DNA from: Bacteroidetes bacterium UKL13-3
GTDB lineage: Bacteria > Bacteroidota > Bacteroidia > UKL13-3
Assembly: GCA_001602415.1 (NCBI GenBank)
Contig: CP012155.1
Span: forward strand, 868,001-932,000
Direction: 5' to 3'
Length of the DNA stretch: 64,000 nt
Shown piece after piece: positions 35,630 through 62,159 of the stretch. Under the pieces are notes generated by a model. That model saw nothing but the letters and a program-made list of their open reading frames with translations, was not told where the DNA came from and searched no databases. The translations under genes were made by a program, and so were the position numbers. The stretch's first letter is position 1. Every line of letters starts with the position of its first letter.

Positions 35630-35818
35630 GCGAACTCTAACCCTCCGCGTTTAAATATTTTCCTAGCGCCTTTGCGGTGAATAAATGTTCTCTGCGCTCA
35701 CTGCGCCTCCGCGTTTAAAACATTCTTAGCGTCTTAGCGGTGAATAACTACTCTGCGTATTCCGCGGTTCCGCGTTTAAATATTCCTCCTTGCGCCTTGG
35801 CGTCTTTGCGGTGAATAA
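35630..35818. repeat. Cluster of GCGCCTTTGCGGTGAATAAA repeats
   Basis: At least four degenerate units follow each other, each ending in 'gcggtgaataa' or 'cgcgtttaaa' (gcgcctttgcggtgaataaa, gcgtcttagcggtgaataac, cgtctttgcggtgaataaaa). It is the densest occurrence of the repeat family also found at 1303 and 1741. In the minus frame they read AKTPRRKEEYLN. Confidence 0.8.
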
Positions 35819-38041: not shown

Positions 38042-41000
38042 ATGAATCAAATTTTTACCAATCAAAGGTATGCCAAGCATACTCTGAGTGTACTATCCAA
38101 AAGTATCTCACTCAAATGGGCAATGGTTTTGTTGCCGTTTTTTTTGTTAAACACATTACATGCTCAAACCACCTACACCTGGAATCAATCAGGTGGTGGG
38201 TTATGGACGACCACAACAAACTGGACTCCCAATGGAACACCAGGGGCCAATGATACAGTTATTATTAATCCATCGGTAGCAACACCCATTACAGCAGTGC
38301 CAACGGGTATTATACTTGGTGCTGTGAGAATTACTTCAAGTGCGGCAGTAACAACCACATTTACAGCTAGCTCCGTAGGTACCTTAAATGTAGTACAATT
38401 TACCATTGGCGGAACTACGGCCGCTAATACCTGTACATTTGCATTTGGTGCGCTAACGACTATCAATATTCCAACTGGTGGTTTTTTTACCGTAAACCAA
38501 GGTGGTGCTTTTTCGGGGGCATCTGCCATATTGTTTACTTTACAATCGGGTGCTACATTAAATTGGGCAAGAGATGGTGGAACAATACCCGTTGCTGGAT
38601 ACAATGCCAATTCAACTATTAACGTAACAGGAGTTACTTCGACAACCGTTGCGGCAACGACTTCGACATGGGGTAATCTTATTTGGAATTGTCCGAATCA
38701 AACTGTATTAGGTAACCTTTCTAGTACTATTACTGCTATAGCAGGATCCGTAACATTTTCGAATACAGGAACGGGTTCGTTTCAATGGGGAGCGGCACCA
38801 ACTACTGCAGTAGCAGGAGCTATGTCAGTTACAAACTCAACTATTACTGTTTCAGGAGGAACTGGTGTCGCCTATAATGGTGGATTAACATTAAATTCTG
38901 GTGGTATAATAAATACAACAGCAGCATCAACTTTTGCTGTAACTGGTGGTAATTTAACTGTAAATTCAGGAGGAACGATAAATAATGCCAGTGCAACAGC
39001 ACTTACTGTAAATATTAATGGAACAAATAATTTGTCAGTAAATAGTGGGGGACGTGTATTAGCAACAAGCACAGGTACCAACACTTTTGTAATGAATGGA
39101 ACCACCCAAGCAATTACCAATAATGGAATATTTACAGGATTAAATAATTTAACGATTAACGGCACTACCACCTTAAACTCCGACCTTACGGTTAATAATT
39201 TAACAATAACATCCGGACCAACAGGCTCACTCAGTGTAGCTTCAACAAAAACACTAACAGTAAATGGAACGGGGGGAATTGCAACTTCAAGTGCACTTAA
39301 TAACAATTTTTTGGGTGGATTGGGTAATGTTATTTTTACTTCACCAATCAATACATTAACCATTGGAGGAAATGGTCCTGCTATTCAAAGTGGAAGTGCC
39401 ACAGCAACTATTCGTAACTCGGGTACTATTACCATTAACTCACCAAATATTACATTAAATGGTGGATTAGGACAATCAACAGGAACGGGTTTTCCTGCAA
39501 GTTTTACAACTGGAACAGTAACTTGCAGTACAGTGGGAGGAACCACCATCACCCAAAATACCAGCTTTTTTAATTTAACAGGAACAACTACTATAACCAT
39601 TCCATCTGGTATTACTGCAACTGTGATAAGCGGTGGCGCATTAGTGATGGCAAATGCAGCAAGTGCCATAACAGTTGCTCCAACTGGAACTTTACAAGTA
39701 AATGGAACAGTAACATTTGGTGCAACAGCAACCATTACAGGTGCTGGTACATTTACACTTGCTTCAGGCGCAACTCTATCTACAGCTAGTACTGCTGGTA
39801 TTACACAACTTACACCAACAGGATCGGTGCAAACTACAACGCGTAATTATAACAGTGCAGCAAATTATAATTATACGGTTGCTACTGGTAATTCAGGTGA
39901 TGGATTGCCAGCTACTTTAACAGGTGGAACAGTTACAACCTCGGGTGCAACATTTACCTTAACCCGAACAACTACTTTTAATAATCTAACAGTAACAGCT
40001 TCTCCGTTTCAGGTTGGAGCCGGAATAACTTGTACAATTAATGGTACCTACTCAGCAGCAGGTGCTTTCAATATGACCGGTCTCGGTAATTTTACGGCTG
40101 CATCAGGTTCAACACTTATTTTGGGAAGCACATCGCCAAGTGGGGTTCTTCAAACAGGAGTTGCTGGAAATATTCAAGTGAGCGGAGCAAGGACGTATGC
40201 CCCTGATGTAAATATTACTATTGCTGCTTCAGCTAATGCAACTGGTTCTGGTGTTGGAGGTTTCCCTTCATCAATAGGCCGTTTAACCATTACTTCATCA
40301 GCCAATGTTACCTTATTGCAAGCAACTACAGTAACGGGTTTATCTTTACAAAGCGCAGCAAATTTGGTAACCACCACCACCAATTTATTAACCGTAACAG
40401 GAACAGCCAACAATAGTGTGAGTAGAACTTCTACAGGTTTTGTAAATGGCCCAATGGCTCGTACATTTCCTACCAGTTTTAATACACCTGGGGTGTATTT
40501 ATTTCCTATTGGAAAAACGGCTTCACAAAATTTTGAATTATACAACCCAACTGTAAATAGTTCAGGCTCTATAACCATTCAAGTGGAATCATTTGGAACT
40601 GCTCCTGCAGGAGGAACATCAAGCACTGGATTAACAGGTTCAATGAGTACCAGATATTGGGCAGTAAGTGCCATTACTGGAGCTGGAAGTTTAACCGGAT
40701 TAAGTAATATAAGAGTAACCGAAAGCAATTGGACAACCTTGCAAAAATTAGGCTTATCCACCACCTTGAGTGGTGCCTATACATCCATTGGTGGTTATAC
40801 ATCGGGTAATACTTTATTAAGTACCTCTGCACTCAATACAACTACCATTTCGGGTGGAGTATTTATTGGTATTGCAAACTCTTCTGGTTTAACTGCTGGA
40901 TTTACTGCTGGAACTTATGCAATTGGTCCTGGTTCATATACAGGCTTTGCAGGTACATACACCAGTATTGGTGCTGCCTTGCAAGCTATGTCGGGCTTTA

Positions 41001-44000
41001 GCTCATTGGCGGGAGCAGTGGTATTGGAATTGCAAACGGATTATGTACCAACAGTTGAAACTTACCCAATCAATATCGGTAATAGTTTACCTACAACTTT
41101 GGCCAATAATATTACCATTAGGCCTAATTCGGGTGTTGTTGTTCCTATAGCTTTCACAAGTGACGGTACCAACTTTGCCAATGCAGGAGTATTTGATTTT
41201 AATGGAGGTAAATTTGTTTCATTGGATGGAAGACCCGGAGGAACAGGAACATCGCAAATGATTTCTGTTACCAATACGGGTAATGGTCCTGCGGTAAGGT
41301 TTATTAACGAAGCACAAAACGATACTATACGCAGGGTAGTGCTTCAATCAAACAATCCATTAGCAACTACTGGTGTGGTGTTTTTTAGCACAGCTATTGC
41401 TTCAGGCACAGGAAATAATTCAAATGGATTAGATTTTTGTAATATCAATGCAAATGGTATAAACCCTTATGGCATTATATCAGGAGGTTCTTCAGGAACT
41501 GCCAATGAACAAAACAGGTTAAATACCATTAGCAATTGTAATATTTACGATTTCTTTTCGGATGTATCATCCGTTGGGGCAAATGTTGGAATATTCCTAT
41601 CCACAGGTTCATCAGCATTTACCATAACAGGTAACAGTATTTATCAAACTGCCGATAGAACGTTTACAAATAATATAAATGGGCATAGGGGAATACTCAT
41701 AAATAGCATAGCGAATAACTCAGGTAACTTTTTGATCACCAATAATTTTATTGGAGGTCAGGCTCCAAGTTGTGGTGGTGTTTCGATGAAATATTTAACG
41801 GCTTCTTCTGTTATTTCGGCAGCTACTAACTCCTTTTTTGGGATGCAAATTGCCCAAACAGCTACTCTAGGTAATACGACTAGTATACAAGGCAATACCA
41901 TTCAAAACTTAAGGGTGGACGGAATTCCAGCTTCAGCGGGCCCATATATATTCGTTGGAATTATTTGTACTGCAGGTGATATTAATGCTGGAACAGTAAC
42001 TGGCAATACCATTGGGTCAGGAACAGGAACTGCTTCGATTACCGTTAACAATAATAACTCAACATTTTCTGCAGCAGTTGCTGGATTTGATTTACGAGGT
42101 TTAAATACAAACCTACAAAACAATACTATTGGGTCAATTACTGTTTCTGGAACTTCTACTTCTGCGGTTAGTGCTCAAGGAATTTCTATTGGTAGTGGGG
42201 TTACAGGAACGCTTACGATTTCAGGCAATACAATTGGAAGTGGAACAGCCACCTTTGGAAGCGGAACTGCCAATAGCATTAATTTTACTTCGGCTAATAT
42301 GCCAGTGCAGTTTACTGCAATTTCTAATGCGGCTATTCCTGCTACTGCCACACCAGCCACTCCCATCACTAATAATATCATTGCAAACATTACGAGCAGC
42401 AGCACACATCATACTTCTTTTGTCCGTGGAATTTTACATTCAACAGGATCCATATCTCCTGCAGTAATTACAGGAAACATTGTTCGTAATTTCAGCAATG
42501 CCAACACTTTTCCGTTTGCCGATAACTCGTTAAATCAAACTAGCGGAATTAATATCAATGCTGCATCGGCAGTGGGTCACGTGGTGACCAATAACCAAAT
42601 ACACAGTTTAAGCAATACAAATGCTGCTTCATCAACAGGAGTTGTAGGTATTTTTTTCAATGGAACCACGGGCTATAATTTAATAAGCCGTAATTTCATT
42701 CACTCACTAAGTGCAAGTGGTTCACAAAGTTCAATAAGAGGTATTCATAATTTTGGAGGTAATGCTACTATACAAAACAATATGATACGTTTGGGAATAA
42801 ACCCAGATGGTACCAATCAAACTACTGATTTAGATATTCAAGCAGTTCGCACTACCTCAACAGCAGCAGTTAATTTACTTAACAATAGTATTTACGTTGG
42901 TGGAACAGGAGTAAGCGGAGCACTTAACTCATTTGCGTATTACAGAGTGGGTGCCAATACCTTACAAGACAGTATTTTTAACAATATTTTGGTGAACGAA
43001 CGCAGCAATGTCTCGGGCACAGGTATTCATTTTGCTGCAGTATTTCCGGCAGCCAGAACTGCAACCAATATCATCAGTAACTACAATATATACAGGGCAA
43101 GTGGCACAGGTGGGGCACTTATCAATACAGGAAATACCTTTACAACTTCGCTTACTTTTTCTCAATATCAGCAATCGATGGCTACTTTTACTGATTTAAA
43201 TTCAGGAGTAAGCACTGGTGCAGATATAATTTTTACCTCCGCTAAAACTGGCAGAGCAGATGGAACAGGAACAAATGTAAGTTTGGCATTAGCCAACCCA
43301 AGTGCAGCCAATGGAACCGGTGTTGTGGTTTCGGCCATGACGGAAGATTTTAATGGAGCAGCCAATAGAACTGGGGTAAATGGACAAGCTACCAATATTG
43401 GGGCGAGCAATACCGCAACAAGTATTACAGCCAGTGAAGATATTTTTGCTCCTGTAATTACTTACCCGATACTTGCTAATAGAGGAAACGCCAATTTAAG
43501 TGTAACAGGTATTACCATTACCGATCAAGGTGCAAGAATTCCGGGAATTGCCAATGCGAATAGACCTCGTTTTTACTATCGCAATGTTTCTACTTCAAGC
43601 ACTTGGGCGAGTGTGCCAGCAAGTGCTATAAGCGGAAATAGTTATTCATTTACAATTGATTATAGTTTGTTAACTCCAACCGGAGCAAATTTGGGAAATA
43701 CCATTCAATATTATGTAGTAGCTCAAGATGCGGCTACTGCAGCTAATCTTTCTTCAAATCCAAGAGCAGGATTTGTGGGAACAGATGTCAATACAGTAAC
43801 CACAGCTCCTACTACACCCAATAGCTTTACCATTGTACCTAGTTTATCAGGCACAGTAAATATTGGCGGAACAGCAGCAGCATTAACCGGAGGCGCAACT
43901 TATGCTACCTTAACTGAAGCCATTGGAGATATGGCAGGTGGGCAAATTATTGCCATTCGCAGAACAAATAAAGGAAGTGGTTATACTTCCGCACCTACCG

Positions 44001-47000
44001 TGGTGTTTACAGGTGGCGGAGGAACCGGGGCTGCTGCAACAGCAATCTTTGCCGGTGATTCGGTAGTATCGATACTAATGACCAATTATGGTTCAGGTTA
44101 CACTTCTGCACCTACAATTAGTTTTACAGGTGGTGGAGGCGGAACAGGAGCAGCAGGAACAGCTGTTCTTTCTGGAGGATATGAAATTTCAGGTGCTACC
44201 AGTTTTAATCTAACTTCAACTTACAACTCAGCATTGGAAAATTACCCTATTGTATTTCCTTCGCTTGCGCCAATTAACGCGAATGCTACAAATACTTTAA
44301 CCATTAAGCCAGCAAGCGGAGTGACAACAACAATTAGTGGATCTGTTGCAAGCAATTCCTTAATTCGGTTAAATGGTGCAAGTTTTTTAACCATTGATGG
44401 AAGTAATAGTGCTGGAACAGATAGAAGTTTAACCATCACCAATGCGTCTACAACTGCGCCTACCGCAATTTCACTCGTTAGTTTGGGAACTGCCGCAGGA
44501 GCTTCAAACAATACGATCAGAAATTGTAATATTAGTACAGGGGTAAATACAACTTTAGGTTATGGAATAGCCATAGGAGGAGCTACTCCTGGAACAGCCG
44601 GATCAGACAATGATTTTAACGTTATTCAAAATAACAATATCACACTTGCAGCCGTGCCAATTTATGCAATTGGAAACGCTTCCTTAAGTGCAACGGGTAT
44701 GGATAGTATAACTATTATCGGAAATACAACTGACGTTACTACTGCATCAAGTTTAGCCGTCATAGGAATAAGGGTAGGAAATTCCTTAAATTCAGTAATT
44801 ACTCAAAATACGGTAAGTGCAGAATCAAACAGTACTACCTCACCCGTGGGGATTTCATTAGAAACAGGTTTTATTAATTCAACAGTAACTAGAAATACGA
44901 TTACGAAAGTTTTAGCAACAAATACAGGTGGATATGGTGGACGTGGAATTACCATTGGTACAGGAACCGCCACAAGTAACCTTACTATTTCCAATAATGT
45001 ATTGTATGGAGTAAATGGTTCAAATTGGAATGCTTTTGCTGGTTCATCTTCAATGGGAATATGCATTGGAACAATAGGAGGTAGTGGAACTTTAACTACT
45101 ACAACAGGTGGGGTGAATCTTTACAATAACTCCGTGAACATGACAGGAAGCATGGGTGCTGGGAGCACTGCCGCAACAACAGCAGCATTATATATTGGCT
45201 CTGGAGCTTCGGCCTTGAATATTCGGAATAATAGTTTTGTGAGCACTCAAGTTGCTACAAATATAGGTCAGAAGAACTATGCTATATTTTCTGTGGCAGC
45301 AAATACTGCTTTTACAAACATCAATAACAACAGCTATTTTGTAAGCAATACCTTTAATGCAGCTTCTGCAATTGTTGGTTTAATTAGCGCAACAGATCAA
45401 TCCACATTGGCTGCATGGAGAGCTGCAAGTGCTCAAGATGCTAACAGTATTTCATCTGATCCATTATATAATGCAGCAACAAACTTACGTCCACAATTAT
45501 CATCACCTTTAATTGGTGCAGGAACCCCAATAAGCGGTATTACAACCGACTTTTTAGGAGTAACACGCAGTGGAACAACACCCAGTATTGGTGCTTATGA
45601 AAATGGGGTAGATTTAAATCCACCAGTTATAACTTATACTAATTTAAGTACATTTACTTCATCAACTACCAATAGGGTATTAAGTGCAACCATTCTAGAC
45701 TCATCGGGAGTAAGTTTATCGGGAGCTTTAATGCCACGTATATATTTTAGAAAAAACTCAAACGCTTGGTTCTCGGATGCAGGGGCGTTAAGCAGTGGAA
45801 CAAGCAAAAACGGTACATGGACATTTACGATTAATGCAACTACTTTAAGTGGAGTAACAGCTGCGGATACAATTGCCTATTATGTGATAGCTCAAGATAT
45901 TGCCGCTACTCCAAATGTTACTTCAGTGCCTACAACTGGTTTAGTAGCTACAGATGTAAATACGGTAACTACTCCACCAACCTCACCTAATGTTTATTAT
46001 GTAGTTCCATCATTAAGCGGAACGGTAAATATTGGTGGTAATGGTACTGGACCAAGTATAGGTAATACCTACGCAAGTTTAACTGAAGCATTTGGAGATT
46101 TAAGTGTAGGTAGAGTTAGGGCAATTAGGGTAACGGCTGGTGGCTCAGGTTATACAAGTGCGCCAACAGTTGTATTCACTGGTGGTGGTGGAACAGGAGC
46201 CGCAGCAACGGCCAGGTTTAATGGATCGGGTGCATTATCTTCAATTGTAATGACGAATTATGGAAGTGGTTATACAAGTGCACCAACCATTGCCATTACA
46301 GGCGGTGGAGGTGGAACTGGAGCCACAGCAACGGCTATTCTTTCTGCTGGACAAGAGTTAACAGGAGCAACTACTTTTTCACTTACTTCAACTTATAATA
46401 CTACAGATACAGTTGAAGCATATCCAATTGTGATTCCGTCATTAACCAATAATGGTGGTTCAACAACCAATACCATAACCATTATGCCAGCAAGTGGTGT
46501 TGCTACAAGTTCTATCAGTGGTTCATCAACAACCTCATCTATTATTGATTTTAATGGAGGAAGTAATGTAATTATTGATGGAAGAGCAGGTGGCACTGGT
46601 CCTATTGTGTTAACAATTGAAAACACTTCGGCTACGGCTGGCGCATCTACGGTTAGGTTTATTAATGAAGCTTCAAGAGATACGGTGCGTTTTTGTAATG
46701 TATTGGGGTCGGGAACAGGTGCAACTACAGGTACTATTTTAATTAGCACCACAACAGGAGCTAATGGAAATGATAATATAGGAATTACCGATTGTAATAT
46801 AACCAATTCGGGTGCAAACTTGCCAATTAATGGCATCTTCAACCAAGGAACTACAACAACCAATGCTACGTTCAATAATGGTCTTTTTGTTAATAACAAT
46901 AATATCAGCAATTACTTCAATGCAACAGCTGCCTCTACTGGTATTCAGTGTCAAACGGGTACTGGAGAGAATATTATTACCAATAATCGCTTTTTTCAAA

Positions 47001-53000: not shown

Positions 53001-56000
53001 CTGGAAGCACAGCATCAAGTATTATTGGTTCAACCCCAACAGGTGGAACAGGAACCTACACGTATAGCTGGTTGAGTTCAATTACAAGTGCAACAGCAGG
53101 ATTTGCTGCAATAAAAGGATCGAATACAACCATCAACTATGCACCGGGTATATTAACTGCTACCACATGGTACAGAAGATTAACCACGTCAGGCGGTTGT
53201 ACAGATACAAGTGCAGCGGTTGAAGTAACAGTAAACCCTGCGATAGCAGACAATACAGCAACTGGAAAACAAACCATTTGTTCTGGAAGCACAGCATCAA
53301 GTATTATTGGTTCAACCCCAACAGGTGGAACAGGAACCTACACGTATAGCTGGTTGAGTTCAACTACAAGTGCAACAGCAGGATTTGCTGCAATAAAAGG
53401 ATCGAATACAACCATCAACTATGCACCGGGTATATTAACTGCTACCACATGGTACAGAAGATTAACCACATCAGGCGGTTGTACAGATACAAGTGCAGCG
53501 GTTGAAGTAACAGTAAACCCTGCGATAGCAGACAATACAGCAACTGGAAAACAAACCATTTGTACAGGCAGCACAGCATCAAGTATTATTGGTTCAACCC
53601 CAACAGGTGGAACAGGAACATACACGTATAGCTGGTTGAGTTCAACTACAAGTGCAACAGCAGGATTTGCTGCAATAAAAGGATCGAATACAACCATCAA
53701 CTATGCACCGGGTATATTAACTGTTACCACATGGTACAGAAGATTAACCACGTCAGGCGGTTGTACAGATACAAGTGCAGCTGTTCAGATAACAGTAAAC
53801 CCTGCGATAGCAGGCAATACAGCAACTGGAACACAAACCATTTGTTCTGGAAGCACAGCAGCAAGTATTATTGGTTCAACCCCAACAGGCGGAACAGGAA
53901 CCTACACGTATAGCTGGTTACGTTCAATTACAAGTGCAACAGCAGGATTTGGTTTAGCAACAGGAACGAATACAACCATCAACTATGCACCGGGTATATT
54001 AATTGTTACCACATGGTACAGAAGATTAACCACATCAGGCGGTTGTACAGATACAAGTGCAGCTGTTCAGATAACAGTAAACCCTGCGATAGCAGGCAAT
54101 ACAGCAACTGGAACACAAACCATTTGTACAGGCAGCACAGCATTCGATATTATTGGTTCAGCCCCAACAGGCGGAACAGGAACATACACGTATAGCTGGT
54201 TGAGTTCAACTACAAGTGCAACAGCAGGATTTGGTTTAGCAACTGGAGTAACAACTTCTTCAATCTATTCTCCAGGAACAAGAACATCGACAACTTGGTT
54301 CAGACGCTTAGTTATATCAGGCGGTTGCACAGATACAAGTGCAGCTGTTCAGATAACAGTAAACCCTGCGATAGCAGGCAATACAGCAACTGGAACACAA
54401 ACCATTTGTACAGGCAGCACAGCATCAAGTATTATTGGTTCAACCCCAACAGGTGGAACAGGAACCTACACGTATAGCTGGTTGAGTTCAACTACAAGTG
54501 CAACAGCAGGATTTGCTGCAATAAAAGGATCGAATACAACCATCAACTATGCACCGGGTATATTAACTGCTACCACATGGTACAGAAGATTAACCACATC
54601 AGGCGGTTGTACAGATACAAGTGCAGCGGTTGAAGTAACAGTAAACCCTGCGATAGCAGACAATACAGCAACTGGAACACAAACCATTTGTACAGGCAGC
54701 ACAGCATCAAGTATTATTGGTTCAACCCCAACAGGTGGAACAGGAACCTACACGTATAGCTGGTTGAGTTCAACTACAAGTGCAACAGCAGGATTTGCTG
54801 CAATAAAAGGATCGAATACAACCATCAACTATGCACCGGGTATATTAACTGCTACCACATGGTACAGAAGATTAACCACATCAGGCGGTTGTACAGATAC
54901 AAGTGCAGCGGTTGAAGTAACAGTAAACCCTGCGATAGCAGACAATACAGCAACTGGAAAACAAACCATTTGTACAGGCAGCACAGCATCAAGTATTATT
55001 GGTTCAACCCCAACAGGTGGAACAGGAACATACACGTATAGCTGGTTGAGTTCAACTACAAGTGCAACAGCAGGATTTGCTGCAATAAAAGGATCGAATA
55101 CAACCATCAACTATGCACCGGGTATATTAACTGTTACCACATGGTACAGAAGATTAACCACGTCAGGCGGTTGTACAGATACAAGTGCAGCTGTTCAGAT
55201 AACAGTAAACCCTGCGATAGCAGGCAATACAGCAACTGGAACACAAACCATTTGTTCTGGAAGCACAGCAGCAAGTATTATTGGTTCAACCCCAACAGGC
55301 GGAACAGGAACCTACACGTATAGCTGGTTGAGTTCAACTACAAGCCCTTCAATAGGATTTACACTTGCAGCAGGAACAAACAATTCTAGTGATTACGCAC
55401 CACAGCCATTAACCCAAACAACATGGTTCCGTAGAGTTGTGAGTTCAGGAGTTTGCTCTGCAGATACTTCAGCTGCAATTGCAATATCAGTAAATCTAAA
55501 TATAACGGCTTCTGTTTCAGTATCTGCAACAGCAACTTCCGTTTGCGGTCCTGGTTCAATTACCTTTACTGCTTCACCAACAAATGGAGGAACCACACCT
55601 GCATACCAATGGAAATTAAATGGAGTAAATGCGGGGACTAACAGTAATACATATACCTTAACAACTCCTCTGGTAGATGACTCAGTTTATGCGGTATTAA
55701 CATCCAATGCAACACCATGTTTAGCCAATGTAACAGCAAACAGTAATGCTATAAAACTCACCAATTCTACCATAACGCCATCTGTTTCAATTTCAGTTCC
55801 TGATTCATTTATATGTTCAGGGAATTCAACAACATTCACTGCAATACCAACTAATGGAGGTAGTTCTCCTACATTCCAATGGAAAAAGAATGGAGTAAAT
55901 GTTGGAACTAATTTGAACACTTATACTGATAACAATTTATTAGCTGGAGACTCAATTGTTGTGGTACTTACTTCTAATGCGACTTGTTTGAGTTCAACGA

Positions 56001-59000
56001 CTGCTACAAGCAATTTCATCAGAATGAGTATTCGCATAGCAACTGCAATATCTGTTCATCCAGTTGGAATCAGCAGATGTATTGGTTCGTCAGCATCATT
56101 GAGTGTTTCGGCTATTGGAGATGGAGTTAGAACATATCAGTGGAGAAAAAATGGTGTTAATATTATAGGAGCAAATGCTGCATCATTCAATCTTCCGGCT
56201 GTGGCATTAATCGACTCGGGATCATATACAGTTATAGTTACTGCAAATTGTGGATCAGATACTTCATTGGTTGGCTATTTAACGATAACAGCACCTGTAA
56301 CTAATAACTCAATTTCTGGAACGCAGTCAATATGTTTTGGTAATTCGGTAAGTCAATTATCAGGTGCTTTACCTTCGGGTGGCAATGGTAACAACTACAG
56401 TTATTTGTGGCAATCGTCAACTATTAGCTCTTCCGCTGGATTTACGGCTGTGGCTGGAACAAATAATTCACTCAATTACAAGCCTAATTCACTTTCTCAA
56501 ACTACTTGGTTCAGAAGAGTGACTAGTTCTGGAGTTTGTACACCAGATACAAGTGCAGCGGTTGAAGTAACAGTAAACCCTGCGATAGCAGACAATACAG
56601 CAACTGGAAAACAAACCATTTGTACAGGCAGCACAGCATCAAGTATTATTGGTTCAACCCCAACAGGCGGAACAGGAACCTACACGTATAGTTGGTTGAG
56701 TTCAATTACAAGTGCAACAGCAGGATTTGCTGCAATAAAAGGATCGAATACAACCATCAACTATGCACCGGGTATATTAACTGCTACCACATGGTACAGA
56801 AGATTAACCACGTCAGGCGGTTGCACAGATACAAGTGCAGCTGTTCAGATAACAGTAAACCCTGCGATAGCAGACAATACAGCAACTGGAAAACAAACCA
56901 TTTGTACAGGCAGCACAGCATCAAGTATTATTGGTTCAACCCCAACAGGCGGAACAGGAACCTACACGTATAGCTGGTTGAGTTCAACTACAAGTGCAAC
57001 AGCAGGATTTGCTGCAATAAAAGGATCGAATACAACCATCAACTATGCACCAGGTATATTAACTGCTACCACATGGTACAGAAGATTAACCACGTCAGGC
57101 GGTTGTACAGATACAAGTGCAGCGGTTCAGATAACAGTAAACCCTGCGATAGCAGACAATACAGCAACTGGAAAACAAACCATTTGTTCTGGAAGCACAG
57201 CATCAAGTATTATTGGTTCAACCCCAACAGGTGGAACAGGAACATACACGTATAGCTGGTTACGTTCAATCACAAGTGCAACAGCAGGATTTGGTTTAGC
57301 AACAGGAACGAATACAACCATCAACTATGCACCGGGTATATTAATTGTTACCACATGGTACAGAAGATTAACCACATCAGGCGGTTGCACAGATACAAGT
57401 GCAGCTGTTCAGATAACAGTAAACCCTGCGATAGCAGGCAATACAGCAACTGGAACACAAACCATTTGTTCTGGCAGCACAGCATTCGATATTATTGGTT
57501 CAGCCCCAACAGGCGGAACAGGAACATACACGTATAGCTGGCTGAGTTCAACTACAAGTGCAACAGCAGGATTTGGTTTAGCAACTGGAGTAACAACTTC
57601 TTCAATCTATTCTCCAGGAACAAGAACATCGACAACTTGGTTCAGACGCTTAGTTATATCAGGCGGTTGCACAGATACAAGTGCAGCGGTTCAGATAACA
57701 GTAAACCCTGCGATAGCAGGCAATACAGCAACTGGAACACAAACCATTTGTACAGGCAGCACAGCATCAAGTATTATTGGTTCAACCCCAACAGGTGGAA
57801 CAGGAACATACACGTATAGCTGGTTGAGTTCAACTACAAGTGCAACAGCAGGATTTGCTGCAATAAAAGGATCGAATACAACCATCAACTATGCACCGGG
57901 TATATTAACTGCTACCACATGGTACAGAAGATTAACCACATCAGGCGGTTGTACAGATACAAGTGCAGCGGTTCAGATAACAGTAAACCCTGCGATAGCA
58001 GGCAATACAGCAACTGGAACACAAACCATTTGTACAGGCAGCACAGCATTCGATATTATTGGTTCAGCCCCAACAGGCGGAACAGGAACATACACGTATA
58101 GCTGGCTGAGTTCAACTACAAGTGCAACAGCAGGATTTGCTTTAGCAACTGGAACGAATACAACCATCAACTATGCACCGGGTATATTAACTGCTACCAC
58201 ATGGTACAGAAGATTAACCACATCAGGCGGTTGCACAGATACAAGTGCAGCTGTTCAGATAACAGTAAACCCTGCGATAGCAGGCAATACAGCAACTGGA
58301 ACACAAACCATTTGTTCTGGCAGCACAGCATTCGATATTATTGGTTCAGCCCCAACAGGCGGAACAGGAACATACACGTATAGCTGGCTGAGTTCAACTA
58401 CAAGTGCAACAGCAGGATTTGGTTTAGCAACTGGAGTAACAACTTCTTCAATCTATTCTCCAGGAACAAGAACATCGACAACTTGGTTCAGACGCTTAGT
58501 TATATCAGGCGGTTGCACAGATACAAGTGCAGCGGTTCAGATAACAGTAAACCCTGCGATAGCAGGCAATACAGCAACTGGAACACAAACCATTTGTACA
58601 GGCAGCACAGCATCAAGTATTATTGGTTCAACCCCAACAGGTGGAACAGGAACATACACGTATAGCTGGTTGAGTTCAACTACAAGTGCAACAGCAGGAT
58701 TTGCTGCAATAAAAGGATCGAATACAACCATCAACTATGCACCGGGTATATTAACTGCTACCACATGGTACAGAAGATTAACCACGTCAGGCGGTTGTAC
58801 AGATACAAGTGCAGCTGTTCAGATAACAGTAAACCCTGCGATAGCAGACAATACAGCAACTGGAAAACAAACCATTTGTACAGGCAGCACAGCATCAAGT
58901 ATTATTGGTTCAACCCCAACAGGTGGAACAGGAACGTATACGTATAGCTGGTTGAGTTCAATTACAAGTGCAACAGCAGGATTTGCTGCAATAAAAGGAA

Positions 59001-61768
59001 CGAATACAACCATCAACTATGCACCGGGTATATTAACTGCTACCACATGGTACAGAAGATTAACCACGTCAGGCGGTTGCACAGATACAAGTGCAGCTGT
59101 TCAGATAACAGTAAACCCTGCGATAGCAGACAATACAGCAACTGGAAAACAAACCATTTGTACAGGCAGCACAGCATTCGATATTATTGGTTCAACCCCA
59201 ACAGGTGGAACAGGAACATACACGTATAGCTGGCTGAGTTCAACTACAAGTGCAACAGCAGGATTTGGTTTAGCAACTGGAGTAACAACTTCTTCAATCT
59301 ATTCTCCAGGAACAAGAACATCGACAACTTGGTTCAGACGCTTAGTTATATCAGGCGGTTGCACAGATACAAGTGCAGCGGTTCAGATAACAGTAAACCC
59401 TGCGATAGCAGGCAATACAGCAACTGGAAAACAAACCATTTGTTCTGGAAGCACAGCATCAAGTATTATTGGTTCAACCCCAACAGGCGGAACAGGAACG
59501 TATACGTATAGCTGGTTACGTTCAATCACAAGTGCAACAGCAGGATTTGGTTTAGCAACAGGAACGAATACAACCATCAACTATGCACCGGGTATATTAA
59601 TTGTTACCACATGGTACAGAAGATTAACCACATCAGGCGGTTGTACAGATACAAGTGCAGCGGTTCAGATAACAGTAAACCCTGCGATAGCAGGCAATAC
59701 AGCAACTGGAACACAAACCATTTGTACAGGCAGCACAGCATTCGATATTATTGGTTCAGCCCCAACAGGCGGAACAGGAACATACACGTATAGCTGGCTG
59801 AGTTCAACTACAAGTGCAACAGCAGGATTTGCTTTAGCAACTGGAACGAATACAACCATCAACTATGCACCGGGTATATTAACTGCTACCACATGGTACA
59901 GAAGATTAACCACATCAGGCGGTTGTACAGATACAAGTGCAGCGGTTCAGGTAACAGTAACAAGTCCAATAGCAACAAACGTGGCAACGGGTAACCAAAC
60001 TATATGTACTAATTCAACACCATCTGTATTGTCGGGTTCAACAGCAACAGGTGGTAATGGCTCGGTTTACAATTACAGTTGGTTAAGCTCTACCACCAGT
60101 GCAACCGCAGGATTTGTATTAGCAGCAGGAACCAACAATTTGGTTAATTATACATCTTCGGCTTTAACTCAAACTACGTGGTTCAGAAGAGCAGTGTCAT
60201 CAGGAGCTTGTGCTATTGATACAAGTGTGGCTGTTCTAGTAACAGTAAATGCATCCGGAATTTGGACAGGATTGGTAAGTTCAGCATGGTCTAATACAGC
60301 AAACTGGAGTTGTCCGTTAGTTCCAACGTCAACAACAAATGTTACTATACCTTCATCAGGAGTTACCAGCATGCCATTTATAGCGGATGCACAACAAACA
60401 GCTAACCTCACTATTTTAGCAGGTGCAACACTTACCTTAAATGCGAGCTCGTCACAGTTGAGTATTTTCGGAACCACGACCAATAATGGAACGTTTAGCA
60501 ACACCAATGGGAAAGTGGTTTTTGCCGGAAGTGCAACCCAAATAGTACCTACAGGAACATATGCTAAATTGCAAATCAATAATGCTGCAAACGTAACATT
60601 GGCAGGTCCTGTTACAGTTAACGACTCGTTGATTTTGGTTAACGGTAGGGTAAATTTGGGAGCCAACAACCTCATATTAGGTGCTGCGTCATTTGCAACA
60701 TCAGGAAGCAGTAATAGCTATGTTTCAACAAATGGAACAGGAGCGGTTATTGTTCAGAATGTTGGTTCAACCGGAAAAACAGGATCTGTAATATTACCAA
60801 TAGGTAACAGTACATTTAATCCTGCCATCTTAGCAAATACAGGAACAACTGATACCTATACAGCGTGGGTTATTGATAGCGTTACGAATTCATATAGCGG
60901 TTCGGTGCCAACAGGCTTAAAGCTAACCACAGGTGCTGTTAACAGAACATGGATTATTAATGAAGGAGTAGCAGGAGGAAGCAATGCAACAGTTACGTTG
61001 CAATGGTTAGCAACTGACGAATTATCGGGCTTCACTAGAGGTGCATCATATGTTGGAAGGTATAACGGTGCAACATGGACAACCAATCTTATTGCAAATG
61101 CGGCATCGGGTTCAAATCCATACACGCAAACTCGTTCTGGTATTAATGCATTCTCTCCATTTGGAGTTGGAAGCAATGGAACGTTACCTGTTGAGATGTT
61201 GGGCTTCACAGCAAATAAACGCAAAGAAGCAGTGAAAGTAAATTGGGTAACTGCTAGTGAAATCAACAACGATCATTTCATCGTTCAACGTTCGGCTGAT
61301 GGAAAAACATTTGTTGATATTGCCAAGGTAAAAGGAAGTGGAACAACCAATATCCTTTCAAACTATCACCATGTTGATGAGAAAGCAACAGCATACGCAC
61401 AATCTGAAAATGTAACAATACTATATTACAGGTTGATGCAAGTTGATTACGACAATAGTACTGCTCATTCTGATGTTGTTGCCGTGAACATGGCCGTTGA
61501 AACAGATGAAATGCGAGTTGATGTTCATCCTAATCCGTTCACAGATATTACTGGATTAACGGTAAAAGTTATTGCCGATTCAAAATCAACAATTAAAGTA
61601 ACAGATGTTCAGGGACGCTTGGTGTTTGAAAAATCAGTAAACCTCGAACAAGGTACTAATACCATAATTATTGATGAATTGGCAGCTGATGCATACTCAG
61701 GCGTGTATTTTGTAACTGTTATCACACCAAACGAATCAATTGTGAAGCGAATTGTGAAAGGCAAATAG
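38042..61768 (+). CDS. Giant T9SS-secreted repeat protein, adhesin-like (7,908 residues)
   Basis: The protein has an extended signal peptide ending at LNTLHAQ. Residues about 40-965 form a beta-strand-rich region starting with a TWNQSGGGLWTTTTNW motif. Four beta-helix-type modules follow (about residues 968-1941, 1942-2664, 2665-3683 and 3684-4400), full of N-x-I/ITGNTIG turns and closing in PSIGAYE, DIGADAG or DIGSVEF. Then come an Ig-like domain, two diverged repeats, array 1 of 94-residue repeats (4690-5818), three Ig-like domains plus a hybrid repeat (5819-6179), array 2 (6180-7307), one diverged repeat, a second WxG...NW region (from about 7404) and a type A sorting domain (7826-7908, VHPNPF). 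It is Thr/Ser/Gly/Asn-rich with few charges. No enzyme motif was seen. Surface adhesion or gliding is inferred from architecture. The frame is unbroken over 23.7 kb and ends at a strong terminator. Confidence 0.93.
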   Translation: MNQIFTNQRYAKHTLSVLSKSISLKWAMVLLPFFLLNTLHAQTTYTWNQSGGGLWTTTTNWTPNGTPGANDTVIINPSVATPITAVPTGIILGAVRITSSAAVTTTFTASSVGTLNVVQFTIGGTTAANTCTFAFGALTTINIPTGGFFTVNQGGAFSGASAILFTLQSGATLNWARDGGTIPVAGYNANSTINVTGVTSTTVAATTSTWGNLIWNCPNQTVLGNLSSTITAIAGSVTFSNTGTGSFQWGAAPTTAVAGAMSVTNSTITVSGGTGVAYNGGLTLNSGGIINTTAASTFAVTGGNLTVNSGGTINNASATALTVNINGTNNLSVNSGGRVLATSTGTNTFVMNGTTQAITNNGIFTGLNNLTINGTTTLNSDLTVNNLTITSGPTGSLSVASTKTLTVNGTGGIATSSALNNNFLGGLGNVIFTSPINTLTIGGNGPAIQSGSATATIRNSGTITINSPNITLNGGLGQSTGTGFPASFTTGTVTCSTVGGTTITQNTSFFNLTGTTTITIPSGITATVISGGALVMANAASAITVAPTGTLQVNGTVTFGATATITGAGTFTLASGATLSTASTAGITQLTPTGSVQTTTRNYNSAANYNYTVATGNSGDGLPATLTGGTVTTSGATFTLTRTTTFNNLTVTASPFQVGAGITCTINGTYSAAGAFNMTGLGNFTAASGSTLILGSTSPSGVLQTGVAGNIQVSGARTYAPDVNITIAASANATGSGVGGFPSSIGRLTITSSANVTLLQATTVTGLSLQSAANLVTTTTNLLTVTGTANNSVSRTSTGFVNGPMARTFPTSFNTPGVYLFPIGKTASQNFELYNPTVNSSGSITIQVESFGTAPAGGTSSTGLTGSMSTRYWAVSAITGAGSLTGLSNIRVTESNWTTLQKLGLSTTLSGAYTSIGGYTSGNTLLSTSALNTTTISGGVFIGIANSSGLTAGFTAGTYAIGPGSYTGFAGTYTSIGAALQAMSGFSSLAGAVVLELQTDYVPTVETYPINIGNSLPTTLANNITIRPNSGVVVPIAFTSDGTNFANAGVFDFNGGKFVSLDGRPGGTGTSQMISVTNTGNGPAVRFINEAQNDTIRRVVLQSNNPLATTGVVFFSTAIASGTGNNSNGLDFCNINANGINPYGIISGGSSGTANEQNRLNTISNCNIYDFFSDVSSVGANVGIFLSTGSSAFTITGNSIYQTADRTFTNNINGHRGILINSIANNSGNFLITNNFIGGQAPSCGGVSMKYLTASSVISAATNSFFGMQIAQTATLGNTTSIQGNTIQNLRVDGIPASAGPYIFVGIICTAGDINAGTVTGNTIGSGTGTASITVNNNNSTFSAAVAGFDLRGLNTNLQNNTIGSITVSGTSTSAVSAQGISIGSGVTGTLTISGNTIGSGTATFGSGTANSINFTSANMPVQFTAISNAAIPATATPATPITNNIIANITSSSTHHTSFVRGILHSTGSISPAVITGNIVRNFSNANTFPFADNSLNQTSGININAASAVGHVVTNNQIHSLSNTNAASSTGVVGIFFNGTTGYNLISRNFIHSLSASGSQSSIRGIHNFGGNATIQNNMIRLGINPDGTNQTTDLDIQAVRTTSTAAVNLLNNSIYVGGTGVSGALNSFAYYRVGANTLQDSIFNNILVNERSNVSGTGIHFAAVFPAARTATNIISNYNIYRASGTGGALINTGNTFTTSLTFSQYQQSMATFTDLNSGVSTGADIIFTSAKTGRADGTGTNVSLALANPSAANGTGVVVSAMTEDFNGAANRTGVNGQATNIGASNTATSITASEDIFAPVITYPILANRGNANLSVTGITITDQGARIPGIANANRPRFYYRNVSTSSTWASVPASAISGNSYSFTIDYSLLTPTGANLGNTIQYYVVAQDAATAANLSSNPRAGFVGTDVNTVTTAPTTPNSFTIVPSLSGTVNIGGTAAALTGGATYATLTEAIGDMAGGQIIAIRRTNKGSGYTSAPTVVFTGGGGTGAAATAIFAGDSVVSILMTNYGSGYTSAPTISFTGGGGGTGAAGTAVLSGGYEISGATSFNLTSTYNSALENYPIVFPSLAPINANATNTLTIKPASGVTTTISGSVASNSLIRLNGASFLTIDGSNSAGTDRSLTITNASTTAPTAISLVSLGTAAGASNNTIRNCNISTGVNTTLGYGIAIGGATPGTAGSDNDFNVIQNNNITLAAVPIYAIGNASLSATGMDSITIIGNTTDVTTASSLAVIGIRVGNSLNSVITQNTVSAESNSTTSPVGISLETGFINSTVTRNTITKVLATNTGGYGGRGITIGTGTATSNLTISNNVLYGVNGSNWNAFAGSSSMGICIGTIGGSGTLTTTTGGVNLYNNSVNMTGSMGAGSTAATTAALYIGSGASALNIRNNSFVSTQVATNIGQKNYAIFSVAANTAFTNINNNSYFVSNTFNAASAIVGLISATDQSTLAAWRAASAQDANSISSDPLYNAATNLRPQLSSPLIGAGTPISGITTDFLGVTRSGTTPSIGAYENGVDLNPPVITYTNLSTFTSSTTNRVLSATILDSSGVSLSGALMPRIYFRKNSNAWFSDAGALSSGTSKNGTWTFTINATTLSGVTAADTIAYYVIAQDIAATPNVTSVPTTGLVATDVNTVTTPPTSPNVYYVVPSLSGTVNIGGNGTGPSIGNTYASLTEAFGDLSVGRVRAIRVTAGGSGYTSAPTVVFTGGGGTGAAATARFNGSGALSSIVMTNYGSGYTSAPTIAITGGGGGTGATATAILSAGQELTGATTFSLTSTYNTTDTVEAYPIVIPSLTNNGGSTTNTITIMPASGVATSSISGSSTTSSIIDFNGGSNVIIDGRAGGTGPIVLTIENTSATAGASTVRFINEASRDTVRFCNVLGSGTGATTGTILISTTTGANGNDNIGITDCNITNSGANLPINGIFNQGTTTTNATFNNGLFVNNNNISNYFNATAASTGIQCQTGTGENIITNNRFFQTATRTNTTAAVHRAIWVTPNSGVLTTGSSNVITGNYIGGNAADGTGTYTITGATTHTFLGMDFSVGFAASTSVQNNTITNINFNTASTSAQAFTGIVIANGNVNVGNSTANTIGSTTTNGAITFTTSGNIGGVTGINIIGGATSVDTIQNNIVSGIDINGSTVSVCNSFNGIVSTTPATVLITGNTIGSGTLANSINVVTASTSGSICPMRGIQTTGGTNVTISNNLIANLTTNLAATGTQASTLTGIASSGTTPNTTITGNTIRNLSTAAQVTNNGVASSALLGISVSTSAGTANVTNNTVHSLLLSGAATTGTVTATGIIFSGTAGTVSKNIIHSIDLTAVNNAAVISGIVQSTGTATYSNNMIRLGIKPDGTDLTTGALISGITKSNATNNNFFFNSVYIGGANVVSSTNTFAFRRISTGTDSLYNNILVNERSNASGSGKNYAIVLNATTTMRSDYNIFRASGTGAVFSSLNGGTNDSTSFQSYRVGLGLTQDMNSGVGNPNFANATGNASAVNLKVSGTTPAEGVGFPIASITDDREGDIRSSNTPTDIGADAGNYTASDIYTPIITYTNLVNSGSTSNRTLVATLTDVGTGVSSARVWFRRSAPSATAWASVAGSLSAGTANNGTWSFTIDYSQLSLTPVAGEVYQYYVVAQDGAGSPNIWYQPVAGALHSDVSTQTTAPTTPSNYTILSPLGSTTFTVGSGGTYPTLTGSGGLFEAINAASLAGNSTAQIISDITEPGTVPLTNAGMSGFTLTITPDASLRTLSAGITTAMIDINGAQGVIIDGGASKNLVLRNAIGSTPDATVGATIQFRGGASNDTLRNCIVEGNASTATIGTVMFGTGVNSNIVLTRNRIRSANASITNLPANALYSNTATNSRLFIGSADAADSNMIHDFTNAGILFSSVGDSIRIRNNQLFERVGVAAHTYVSIGTGNAHTVSNNSIYQVGGVAHSGTITGISVTGSGNGHTIDANSIGGSNIARGGTPLSTTGTVTIIVANVGSTTTTNITSNSISNLLSTSTSSNNSIISSSSGNITIGGSAIAGNTIGGLISGDITASNTIDGILYTGAGIVNISFNTIQNITYADPDFEKLSGIFVSSNQTSAIASAATATITNNTISGLTYNTSATTNSGVFFPYGIYISVNTSGNSISNNQIFNYSLANASGGLPFSGIFVTGTTGINVNANRIYGITSASTQTTTSAPTIRGIQIAGGAGTYSNNQITLNTNTASTQPLLRGIELIGTGAVNVFYNSVFIGGNAAANNNTYAYLRTASSGTQNVRNNIFYNNRSGLGSHYAIGSVAGTVVGLTNTNNFMVAPSANAIGEVPTGTARTLATWNSSTNGNTTNLAYDSSIVTSSALFPSFSSGNLTPNLCYVNNTGTPVTTTVDFAGNTRSTTTPDIGSVEFSTASGFPSVTTQPITPAVVCSGNGVATLTAVGSGINNIVTYRWQVRPASTWLTIGQDSSVYAGAGTGTLTITNPSSVYNNYQYRCIVGGSCSPADTTVARTLTINPLIASNTVTSAQSIITGLIPSSLTGSTPTGGDGSTYSYQWQSSTTSASAGFTDASGTSTTQNYAPSALTATTWYRRIANSGGCSDTSLAIQISVFPVITGNTVSSNQIICNATTPSAITGSTPSGGNASYSYQWIVSTTNATSGFSNATGKSTNQNYSPGSLTATAWYRRVVSSVGGIDTSAVMQVVVNPVIADNTATGKQTICTGSTAFDIIGSTPKGGTGTYTYSWLSSTTSATAGFAAIKGSNTTINYAPGILTATTWYRRLTTSGGCTDTSAAVEVTVNPAIADNTATGKQTICSGSTASSIIGSTPTGGTGTYTYSWLSSITSATAGFAAIKGSNTTINYAPGILTATTWYRRLTTSGGCTDTSAAVEVTVNPAIADNTATGKQTICSGSTAASIIGSTPTGGTGTYTYSWLSSITSATAGFAAIKGSNTTINYAPGILTATTWYRRLTTSGGCTDTSAAVEVTVNPAIADNTATGKQTICSGSTASSIIGSTPTGGTGTYTYSWLSSITSATAGFAAIKGSNTTINYAPGILTATTWYRRLTTSGGCTDTSAAVEVTVNPAIADNTATGKQTICSGSTASSIIGSTPTGGTGTYTYSWLSSTTSATAGFAAIKGSNTTINYAPGILTATTWYRRLTTSGGCTDTSAAVEVTVNPAIADNTATGKQTICTGSTASSIIGSTPTGGTGTYTYSWLSSTTSATAGFAAIKGSNTTINYAPGILTVTTWYRRLTTSGGCTDTSAAVQITVNPAIAGNTATGTQTICSGSTAASIIGSTPTGGTGTYTYSWLRSITSATAGFGLATGTNTTINYAPGILIVTTWYRRLTTSGGCTDTSAAVQITVNPAIAGNTATGTQTICTGSTAFDIIGSAPTGGTGTYTYSWLSSTTSATAGFGLATGVTTSSIYSPGTRTSTTWFRRLVISGGCTDTSAAVQITVNPAIAGNTATGTQTICTGSTASSIIGSTPTGGTGTYTYSWLSSTTSATAGFAAIKGSNTTINYAPGILTATTWYRRLTTSGGCTDTSAAVEVTVNPAIADNTATGTQTICTGSTASSIIGSTPTGGTGTYTYSWLSSTTSATAGFAAIKGSNTTINYAPGILTATTWYRRLTTSGGCTDTSAAVEVTVNPAIADNTATGKQTICTGSTASSIIGSTPTGGTGTYTYSWLSSTTSATAGFAAIKGSNTTINYAPGILTVTTWYRRLTTSGGCTDTSAAVQITVNPAIAGNTATGTQTICSGSTAASIIGSTPTGGTGTYTYSWLSSTTSPSIGFTLAAGTNNSSDYAPQPLTQTTWFRRVVSSGVCSADTSAAIAISVNLNITASVSVSATATSVCGPGSITFTASPTNGGTTPAYQWKLNGVNAGTNSNTYTLTTPLVDDSVYAVLTSNATPCLANVTANSNAIKLTNSTITPSVSISVPDSFICSGNSTTFTAIPTNGGSSPTFQWKKNGVNVGTNLNTYTDNNLLAGDSIVVVLTSNATCLSSTTATSNFIRMSIRIATAISVHPVGISRCIGSSASLSVSAIGDGVRTYQWRKNGVNIIGANAASFNLPAVALIDSGSYTVIVTANCGSDTSLVGYLTITAPVTNNSISGTQSICFGNSVSQLSGALPSGGNGNNYSYLWQSSTISSSAGFTAVAGTNNSLNYKPNSLSQTTWFRRVTSSGVCTPDTSAAVEVTVNPAIADNTATGKQTICTGSTASSIIGSTPTGGTGTYTYSWLSSITSATAGFAAIKGSNTTINYAPGILTATTWYRRLTTSGGCTDTSAAVQITVNPAIADNTATGKQTICTGSTASSIIGSTPTGGTGTYTYSWLSSTTSATAGFAAIKGSNTTINYAPGILTATTWYRRLTTSGGCTDTSAAVQITVNPAIADNTATGKQTICSGSTASSIIGSTPTGGTGTYTYSWLRSITSATAGFGLATGTNTTINYAPGILIVTTWYRRLTTSGGCTDTSAAVQITVNPAIAGNTATGTQTICSGSTAFDIIGSAPTGGTGTYTYSWLSSTTSATAGFGLATGVTTSSIYSPGTRTSTTWFRRLVISGGCTDTSAAVQITVNPAIAGNTATGTQTICTGSTASSIIGSTPTGGTGTYTYSWLSSTTSATAGFAAIKGSNTTINYAPGILTATTWYRRLTTSGGCTDTSAAVQITVNPAIAGNTATGTQTICTGSTAFDIIGSAPTGGTGTYTYSWLSSTTSATAGFALATGTNTTINYAPGILTATTWYRRLTTSGGCTDTSAAVQITVNPAIAGNTATGTQTICSGSTAFDIIGSAPTGGTGTYTYSWLSSTTSATAGFGLATGVTTSSIYSPGTRTSTTWFRRLVISGGCTDTSAAVQITVNPAIAGNTATGTQTICTGSTASSIIGSTPTGGTGTYTYSWLSSTTSATAGFAAIKGSNTTINYAPGILTATTWYRRLTTSGGCTDTSAAVQITVNPAIADNTATGKQTICTGSTASSIIGSTPTGGTGTYTYSWLSSITSATAGFAAIKGTNTTINYAPGILTATTWYRRLTTSGGCTDTSAAVQITVNPAIADNTATGKQTICTGSTAFDIIGSTPTGGTGTYTYSWLSSTTSATAGFGLATGVTTSSIYSPGTRTSTTWFRRLVISGGCTDTSAAVQITVNPAIAGNTATGKQTICSGSTASSIIGSTPTGGTGTYTYSWLRSITSATAGFGLATGTNTTINYAPGILIVTTWYRRLTTSGGCTDTSAAVQITVNPAIAGNTATGTQTICTGSTAFDIIGSAPTGGTGTYTYSWLSSTTSATAGFALATGTNTTINYAPGILTATTWYRRLTTSGGCTDTSAAVQVTVTSPIATNVATGNQTICTNSTPSVLSGSTATGGNGSVYNYSWLSSTTSATAGFVLAAGTNNLVNYTSSALTQTTWFRRAVSSGACAIDTSVAVLVTVNASGIWTGLVSSAWSNTANWSCPLVPTSTTNVTIPSSGVTSMPFIADAQQTANLTILAGATLTLNASSSQLSIFGTTTNNGTFSNTNGKVVFAGSATQIVPTGTYAKLQINNAANVTLAGPVTVNDSLILVNGRVNLGANNLILGAASFATSGSSNSYVSTNGTGAVIVQNVGSTGKTGSVILPIGNSTFNPAILANTGTTDTYTAWVIDSVTNSYSGSVPTGLKLTTGAVNRTWIINEGVAGGSNATVTLQWLATDELSGFTRGASYVGRYNGATWTTNLIANAASGSNPYTQTRSGINAFSPFGVGSNGTLPVEMLGFTANKRKEAVKVNWVTASEINNDHFIVQRSADGKTFVDIAKVKGSGTTNILSNYHHVDEKATAYAQSENVTILYYRLMQVDYDNSTAHSDVVAVNMAVETDEMRVDVHPNPFTDITGLTVKVIADSKSTIKVTDVQGRLVFEKSVNLEQGTNTIIIDELAADAYSGVYFVTVITPNESIVKRIVKGK
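43973..44180 (+). repeat. GSGYTSAPT motif pair in module B
   Basis: GSGYTSAPTVVFTGGGGTGA and, about 35 residues later, GSGYTSAPTISFTGGGGGTG form a two-copy glycine-rich repeat. An equivalent pair is at 46142-46351 in module C. Confidence 0.8.
46142..46351 (+). repeat. GSGYTSAPT motif pair in module C
   Basis: GSGYTSAPTVVFTGGGGTGA and GSGYTSAPTIAITGGGGGTG, at the same spacing and phase as in module B, set at the start of a beta-helix. Confidence 0.8.
52109..55495 (+). repeat. Tandem array 1: twelve 94-residue (282-bp) repeats
   Basis: Units start every 282 bp from 52109; the twelfth has one extra codon and a diverged second half. Consensus landmarks: PAIADNTATGKQTICSGSTA, GGTGTYTYSWLSS, TTWYRRLTTSGGCTDTSAAV. 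Variants occur at fixed places (D/G, K/T, SSII/ASII/FDII, AAIKG/GLATG). A block of about 640 bp at 53291-53928 is repeated, identical by eye, at 54701-55338 (offset 1,410 bp = 5 units). Units look like extracellular Ig/PKD-type domains of Bacteroidota adhesins. Confidence 0.95.
56579..59962 (+). repeat. Tandem array 2: twelve 94-residue (282-bp) repeats
   Basis: Twelve units, all exactly 282 bp, of the same repeat as array 1. Nearly all end in VQITVN, whereas array 1 begins with VEVTVN units. A variant with GVTTSSIYSPGTRTSTTWFRR recurs as units 4, 7 and 10, so a three-unit (846-bp) period is visible; units 6 and 12 match at an offset of 1,692 bp. The variant also occurs once in array 1 (unit 8). 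Confidence 0.95.
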
Positions 61769-61898: not shown

Positions 61899-62096
61899 AT
61901 GCAATTTGGTTTCGAACAATGTCCTTACTGTGGTAATTCTTTCGGATTTGTATACATCCACGGTCACTACCAATGCAAACGTTGCCATCAAAATGTAATG
62001 CCTTGTTGTGGTGGTGAACAAGAGATTATAAAAGATGAAGATCAGAAGAAATCGACTGATAGTCAAAATGCTTCGGAAGAGTCAAGCAGAAGATAA
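61899..62096 (+). CDS. Small zinc-ribbon protein
   Basis: A 65-residue cytoplasmic protein with CPYC at residues 8-11 and CKRC about 18 residues later, a treble-clef or zinc-ribbon spacing, then a CCGG pair and an acidic/polar tail (KDEDQKKSTDSQNASEESS). I do not recognise a named family. It lies 82 bp before sufB on the same strand. A link to Fe-S assembly is only positional; a promoter-like TACATTCG between them suggests separate starts. Confidence 0.7.
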   Translation: MQFGFEQCPYCGNSFGFVYIHGHYQCKRCHQNVMPCCGGEQEIIKDEDQKKSTDSQNASEESSRR

Positions 62097-62159
62097 AACT
62101 TCTTACATCTTTTATTGTATTTAATTTAGACTAATTATAGATAAGTAAAAAACTTGTCT

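Follow-up and report, generated by a model that had tools for sequence, protein, structure and literature searches.

A giant modular protein with a predicted T9SS type A route and a probable Ig_7 repeat stalk encoded by Bacteroidetes bacterium UKL13-3

The window analyzed here, a stretch of 64,000 nucleotides corresponding to positions 868001 to 932000 of the single-contig genome (3,236,529 bases) of Bacteroidetes bacterium UKL13-3, contains one open reading frame (ORF) which specifies a protein of 7,908 residues, thus raising the question of whether a frame of such length represents a genuine gene and, if so, what kind of protein it encodes and what that protein may do. The single unbroken frame reported in a preliminary description of this DNA was borne out, being stop-free and located in a one-contig genome. 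Each of the remaining five frames over the same DNA contains between 219 and 600 stops, and a chance ORF was, therefore, ruled out. The encoded protein has few charged residues (K 0.9%, E 0.7%), while T, S, G, A, and N are abundant. The third-position G+C content of the gene (0.23 to 0.29) is lower than that of five neighboring genes (0.30 to 0.36). We propose that its product is a modular, carbohydrate-binding surface fiber of the T9SS type A class, either statically anchored or shed, a reading which we consider probable, if far from assured. The features of the locus, in window coordinates, are as follows.

36576 to 61898, no strand assigned: stretch comprising the insertion element and the giant gene, missing at the syntenic site of the sister species
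36651 to 37631, plus strand: IS1595-family element directly upstream of the giant gene, with the ends GTATATCCGC...GCGGATATAC
38042 to 61768, plus strand: giant ORF (7,908 aa, calculated mass of 795 kDa), ATG start, without internal stop
38042 to 38164, plus strand: probable Sec signal peptide, residues 1 to 41 (...LLNTLHA, followed by Q), from sequence and hydropathy
38165 to 40891, plus strand: M1, Thr/Ser/Gly-rich N-terminal region, residues 42 to 950, from sequence
40892 to 43861, plus strand: M2, residues 951 to 1940, predicted right-handed beta-helix in which an Asn ladder recurs approximately every 34 to 39 residues, followed by an Ig-like (E-set type) domain, from a structure model
43862 to 46033, plus strand: M3, residues 1941 to 2664, a shorter M2-type module, from alignment and BLAST
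46034 to 49096, plus strand: M4, residues 2665 to 3685, 39% identical to M2, from alignment and BLAST
49097 to 51241, plus strand: M5, residues 3686 to 4400, beta-helix part only, from alignment and BLAST
51242 to 60256, plus strand: Ig-domain stalk, residues 4401 to 7405, with approximately 29 Ig_7-type domains and a few other Ig domains, from PF19081 and a profile of the protein's own units
52142 to 55243, plus strand: array 1, 11 near-identical units of 94 aa (282 bp), residues 4701 to 5734, from repeat comparison
55244 to 56611, plus strand: divergent spacer containing a chimeric unit, Ig_3/I-set-like domains, and one divergent Ig_7 unit
56612 to 59995, plus strand: array 2, 12 near-identical units of 94 aa (282 bp), residues 6191 to 7318, from repeat comparison
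60257 to 61522, plus strand: C-terminal linker before the sorting domain
61523 to 61765, plus strand: T9SS type A C-terminal sorting domain (TIGR04183/PF18962), residues 7828 to 7906

The giant ORF is a real and striking gene, yet its product is a large example of a protein type that is already known, and proteins of equal or greater size occur both in the bacterial family to which it belongs and among giant proteins described elsewhere. The earlier suggestion that it ranks among the largest bacterial proteins was, therefore, overstated: in a set of 64 genomes from this family, in which giant T9SS proteins are a common feature, relatives harbor giant Ig_7 ORFs of 8,746 aa (G009), 8,149 aa (G008), 7,880 aa (G002), and 7,078 aa (G014, in which the frame runs to the contig end). 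Proteins exceeding 5,000 aa constitute a known class (PMC11573180), and the same article cites Omnitrophota proteins that are larger than the product of this ORF.

The stalk provides the closest tie to a characterized protein. The Pfam family PF19081 (Ig_7, "CHU_C associated") matched the giant protein with 223.7 bits (gathering score, 27.3) across 25 stretches, and a profile built from the protein's own units recovered 29 domains, each longer than 70 residues. When a profile of three units was compared with solved structures, it matched chain 8gl6_D, deposited as RemA, in two stretches (E value, 2e-20). The Ig_7 unit is, by this match, homologous to a domain of Flavobacterium RemA/RemZ, a relationship which was absent from the preliminary description. 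A trimer model of the units was poor (pLDDT, 42) and unusable; the fold of the unit is thus predicted from its Pfam match together with its homology to RemA/RemZ, and the Cys pair that is conserved in most of the approximately 29 Ig_7 domains would form a disulfide. Matches of the repeats to FliW and IS66 TnpA look spurious, with no single stretch passing on its own.

The fate of the protein is expected to depend on its C terminus. The sorting domain noted previously scored 44.6 bits against TIGR04183 (cutoff, 23), and 53.2 bits in the genome search. The same genome encodes SprA (2,557 bits), the sortase PorU (1,341 bits), and 106 type A sorting-domain matches, which together support the earlier assignment of the protein as a predicted, surface-exposed T9SS cargo, with adhesion a plausible function. 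Type A substrates are PorV dependent and are subsequently released or linked to lipopolysaccharide (LPS) (PMC10994853; PMC10202324), whereas SprB belongs to the type B substrates and is held by SprF (PMC9143113). Exchange of tags in Flavobacterium johnsoniae has shown that the tag decides the fate of the cargo: SprB fitted with a type A tag, taken from either RemA or AmyB, became immobile or was shed, and RemA itself showed no helical motion in the same study (PMC12618676).

As a type A tag leads to static anchoring or release, it speaks against the SprB-like gliding role which had been put forward earlier, and such a role was not supported. Like SprB, the 669-kDa gliding adhesin of F. johnsoniae, the giant protein is very large, repetitive, and, as judged by its tag, predicted to be T9SS cargo; unlike SprB, it carries a type A rather than a type B tag, has no SprF-like neighbor, and contains Ig_7 repeats. 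The previous impression that SprB homology was not evident by eye proved roughly right, as the SprB repeat family (PF13573) reached 27.3 bits against a cutoff of 28, with the best stretch covering 14 of the 37 profile positions, and membership of the SprB class was rejected on the basis of sorting domain class and neighboring genes. It is nevertheless conceivable that the protein is a mobile adhesin which is carried on the gliding track in the manner of RemA or SprB, its long stalk reaching the substratum. The homology of the Ig_7 unit to RemA/RemZ, a GldJ-like gene in the genome (335 bits, below the cutoff of 458), and the proximity of the SprB-repeat score to its cutoff would be in keeping with this, and as RemA, likewise a type A protein, takes part in gliding, the tag makes gliding less likely rather than impossible. 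Set against these points are the tag itself, the tag-swap results, and the genomic arrangement, in which no porP/sprF-like neighbor of the giant gene is present within the window (0.87 to 0.93 Mb), all three genomic PorP/SprF genes map to 2.35 and 2.66 Mb, and all 21 type B sorting-domain matches (TIGR04131/PF13585) lie outside the window. Furthermore, no described lectin family was detected in the giant protein at E values of up to 1 (Pfam), unlike RemA, which reportedly contains a lectin domain (PMC12618676). We, therefore, regard gliding as an unlikely function. The giant protein resembles RemA/RemZ, which are F. johnsoniae type A T9SS adhesins, in one domain type only (Ig_7), in its type A tag, and in the predicted Sec and T9SS route, and differs from them in its length (7,908 versus 1,436 aa) and in its beta-helix modules, for which the solved chains yielded no match.

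The N-terminal half of the giant protein begins with a hydrophobic stretch at approximately residues 21 to 36 and a likely cleavage site after A41, as judged by eye and by hydropathy. M1 is unlike M2 to M5 in composition and weakly resembles the C-terminal region spanning residues 7406 to 7715. A Pfam search of residues 1 to 4000, which include M1, returned no match; the only NCBIfam match in the N-terminal part was to choice-of-anchor Q and was subthreshold, the match to NF041518 in M3 falling just below its cutoff. Comparison by sequence with solved structures similarly produced no match for the N-terminal 4,360 residues, for the beta-helix profile, or for the C-terminal 509 residues. M3, M4, and M5 share 27 to 39% identity with M2 in alignment, and the modules detect each other by BLAST. 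The model of M2, generated from a four-sequence alignment, is almost entirely beta (mean pLDDT, 54; pTM, 0.63), and although a Foldseek search with this model gave nothing below an E value of 0.001, the candidates, when realigned to it, were right-handed parallel beta-helices with Z scores of 19 to 23. The fits included the epimerases AlgE4 and AlgE6, PL6 lyases, and phage tailspikes (Z scores of approximately 23), along with inulin fructotransferases and NosD; for this moderate-confidence model, the alignment to 2pyg_A had a Z score of 23.4 and a root mean square deviation of 3.4 over 322 residues. The four large beta-helix modules described earlier are thus upheld as a prediction, in that M2 to M5 recognize each other and M2 is modeled as a right-handed parallel beta-helix.

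Such fold matches raise the alternative that the product is a secreted, multimodule enzyme which degrades or modifies polysaccharide, its beta-helices representing lyases, epimerases, or hydrolases, as AlgE epimerases, PL6 lyases, and inulin fructotransferases are the top matches. This fold is, however, common to many nonenzymatic proteins, and neither Pfam nor NCBIfam identified any CAZy-type, lectin, carbohydrate-binding, or S-layer family in the giant protein. When 17 copies of the module, taken from the window and from relatives, were aligned, 90 columns were conserved at 75%, and Asn, Gly, or Ile accounted for 61 of these. Asn is invariant at positions 1361, 1396, 1445, 1479, 1518, 1551, 1580, 1615, and 1648, and is 94% conserved at position 1682, the spacing being mostly 29 to 39 residues, which corresponds to the Asn ladder of a beta-helix. 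Five conserved Asp residues are all located at or after residue 1718, past most of the helix, and no conserved acidic or basic cluster was present inside the helix. The structural nature of the conserved Asn and Gly columns, coupled with the lack of an acidic cluster in the helix, suggests that the module serves in binding or as a scaffold and is not catalytic. It is consequently improbable, in our estimation, that the protein is catalytic, and the beta-helix modules are more readily interpreted, from their sequence, as putative binding or scaffold elements.

A further alternative is that the protein forms a protective or spacer layer, such as an S-layer-like coat or a defense against predators or phages, in which bulk rather than specific binding would matter. 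The charge-poor, Thr/Ser/Gly/Asn-rich composition and the very long repeats are consistent with such a function, as is the presence in the genome of paralogues of approximately 2,450 to 3,060 aa, which carry the modules. The conservation of four structured modules across the family suggests more than bulk, and S-layer families gave no match; a protective coat accordingly has little probability in our assessment.

The regularity of the stalk bears on its history and on the reliability of its length. The 24 near-identical repeats reported previously correspond to 23 units with 77 to 100% identity to the consensus, together with a single chimeric copy, namely, the 12th unit following array 1, which explains the earlier count. 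Within the genome, such near-identical units are confined to the giant gene. Exact duplicated blocks of 632 bp (at a shift of five units) and 591 bp (at a shift of three units) were evident, comparison of the units gave a mean pN to mean pS ratio of 0.56, and the median identity among units was 79%, compared to 52 to 69% in the giant ORFs of relatives. This higher identity indicates that the array is either young or kept alike by recombination, and we infer from the near-identity and the block duplications that it has recently been amplified and homogenized, presumably by recombination. As the exact repeats reach 632 bp, and thus exceed the length of short reads, the unit copy number rests on the assembly, and it could be argued that misassembly accounts for part of the extreme length, with a true copy number smaller or larger in a protein otherwise of the same kind. 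We consider this to be a slim prospect, as the genome is a single contig, the 24 units comprise 22 distinct DNA sequences, the frame is intact throughout, and relatives possess proteins as long without near-identical repeats.

The distribution of the building blocks qualifies the earlier view of a lineage-specific adhesin of undescribed type. The Ig unit was detected in 55, and the M2 module in 57, of the 64 genomes of the family, and with such common building blocks and a unit homologous to a domain of RemA, the claim of an undescribed type mostly falls. The term "lineage specific" holds for the gene and its site, the gene being missing at the corresponding locus of the sister species, and does not hold for its components. 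In G008, G002, and G013 (5,572 aa, cut), beta-helix modules (28 to 43% identity) are followed by Ig_7 units in the same order as in the giant ORF; these proteins differ from it in having fewer (two to eight) and more divergent Ig_7 units. A C-terminal sorting domain is present in G002 and G008, that of G008 being of type A and preceded by a stalk which includes PKD_6 and HYR domains as well, while beta-helix modules were not detected by BLAST in the giant ORFs of G009 and G014. Elsewhere in the UKL13-3 genome (G000:C1:240800-260000), three T9SS type A ORFs, each of approximately 3,060 aa, are arranged in tandem, and at least two of them are related to the beta-helix modules of the giant protein. 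A literature search of incomplete coverage found no published description of the architecture of the giant protein. The best analogue outside the phylum, in architecture only, is provided by Giant1 to Giant4 of Apilactobacillus kunkeei, in which a beta-solenoid head is borne on a long repeat rod; Giant1 to Giant5 (3,000 to 8,000 aa) are likewise large surface proteins which change between species (PMC12863079). These proteins belong to a Gram-positive host, use a different secretion route, and have an alpha-helical rod, and no homology is claimed. Similarly, the giant adhesin of Mobiluncus mulieris (7,651 aa, 51 Ig-like domains; PMC10619420) is comparable in size and in its Ig-domain stalk, although it belongs to another phylum, one without T9SS, and the likeness is an analogy only.

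The genomic site was compared with that of the sister species, the one other species of the genus available for comparison, which is represented by a draft genome of 40 contigs (99% complete). In that species, the gene order is gcvP, a SIMPL gene, a small Cys-rich (zinc-ribbon-like) gene, and sufB, with a gap of approximately 69 bp between the SIMPL gene and the small gene. In the window, the IS1595 copy and the giant gene, amounting to approximately 25.3 kb, lie between flanks which are 66% and 87% identical in DNA sequence to those of the sister species. An orthologue was sought in this draft genome of the sister species and not found, as the best matches were partial (32 to 48% identity) and the syntenic site lacks the gene. 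Genome contigs were also scanned using segments of M4 and M5 and the beginning of the Ig region as queries, and nothing orthologous was revealed; the Ig segment alone gave weak matches, and the Ig_7 profile identified no unit at those loci. The transposase of the IS1595 copy was matched 18 times in the UKL13-3 genome, several of the matches having internal stops, and not at all in the sister species. On the basis of these two genomes, the giant gene was either gained or lost within the genus at the position flanked by the SIMPL gene and sufB. The small Cys-rich ORF of the window (61899 to 62100, MQFGFEQCPYCGNSFGFVYIHGHYQCKRCHQ...), upstream of sufB, is 87% identical in DNA sequence in the sister species, where approximately 1.1 kb with further small ORFs, which are missing from the window, lies between this gene and sufB (L046, 18447 to 19557). 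An imperfect tandem repeat of approximately 61 bp is located between gcvP and the SIMPL gene (35642 to 35782), and elsewhere in the window, an M43 metalloprotease of 751 aa (25902 to 28157) combines a PKD domain with a type A sorting domain.

Returning to the proposed static or shed fiber, its biogenesis would be initiated by Sec export through the signal peptide. By analogy with homologous systems, the type A domain and PorV would then direct passage through the SprA translocon, following which PorU would remove the sorting domain, the new C terminus being joined to surface LPS or the protein being released. The Ig_7 array would serve as a long stalk, holding the four beta-helix modules far from the cell. 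If an Ig domain spans approximately 4 nm, a stalk of approximately 29 or more such domains would perhaps be in the region of 0.1 micrometer long. The beta-helix modules, given their modeled fold and location, may bind polysaccharide or matrix, with adhesion of the cell to surfaces, neighbors, or particles as the outcome; no ligand-binding site was found in the giant protein. Unequal recombination between the 282-bp units would both keep the units alike and make stalk length changeable. We more tentatively suggest that the fiber may be length tunable, its 282-bp units expanding and shrinking between strains by recombination so that the same polysaccharide-binding beta-helix head is carried on stalks of different lengths, with the gene moving in and out of the site beside IS1595; this extension is possible, if doubtful.

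With the stalk unit linked to RemA/RemZ, and with beta-helices assigned to the N-terminal modules, a testable picture of a head, a stalk, and a static anchor emerges. If the tag rule applies, whereby type A cargo is static or shed and some type B cargo serves gliding, the role of many such proteins would be predictable from sequence. Two features merit further attention, namely, the young array and the variable occupancy of a fixed site by the gene. The near-identical array, coupled with the empty site of the sister species, offers a handle on how such stalks grow.
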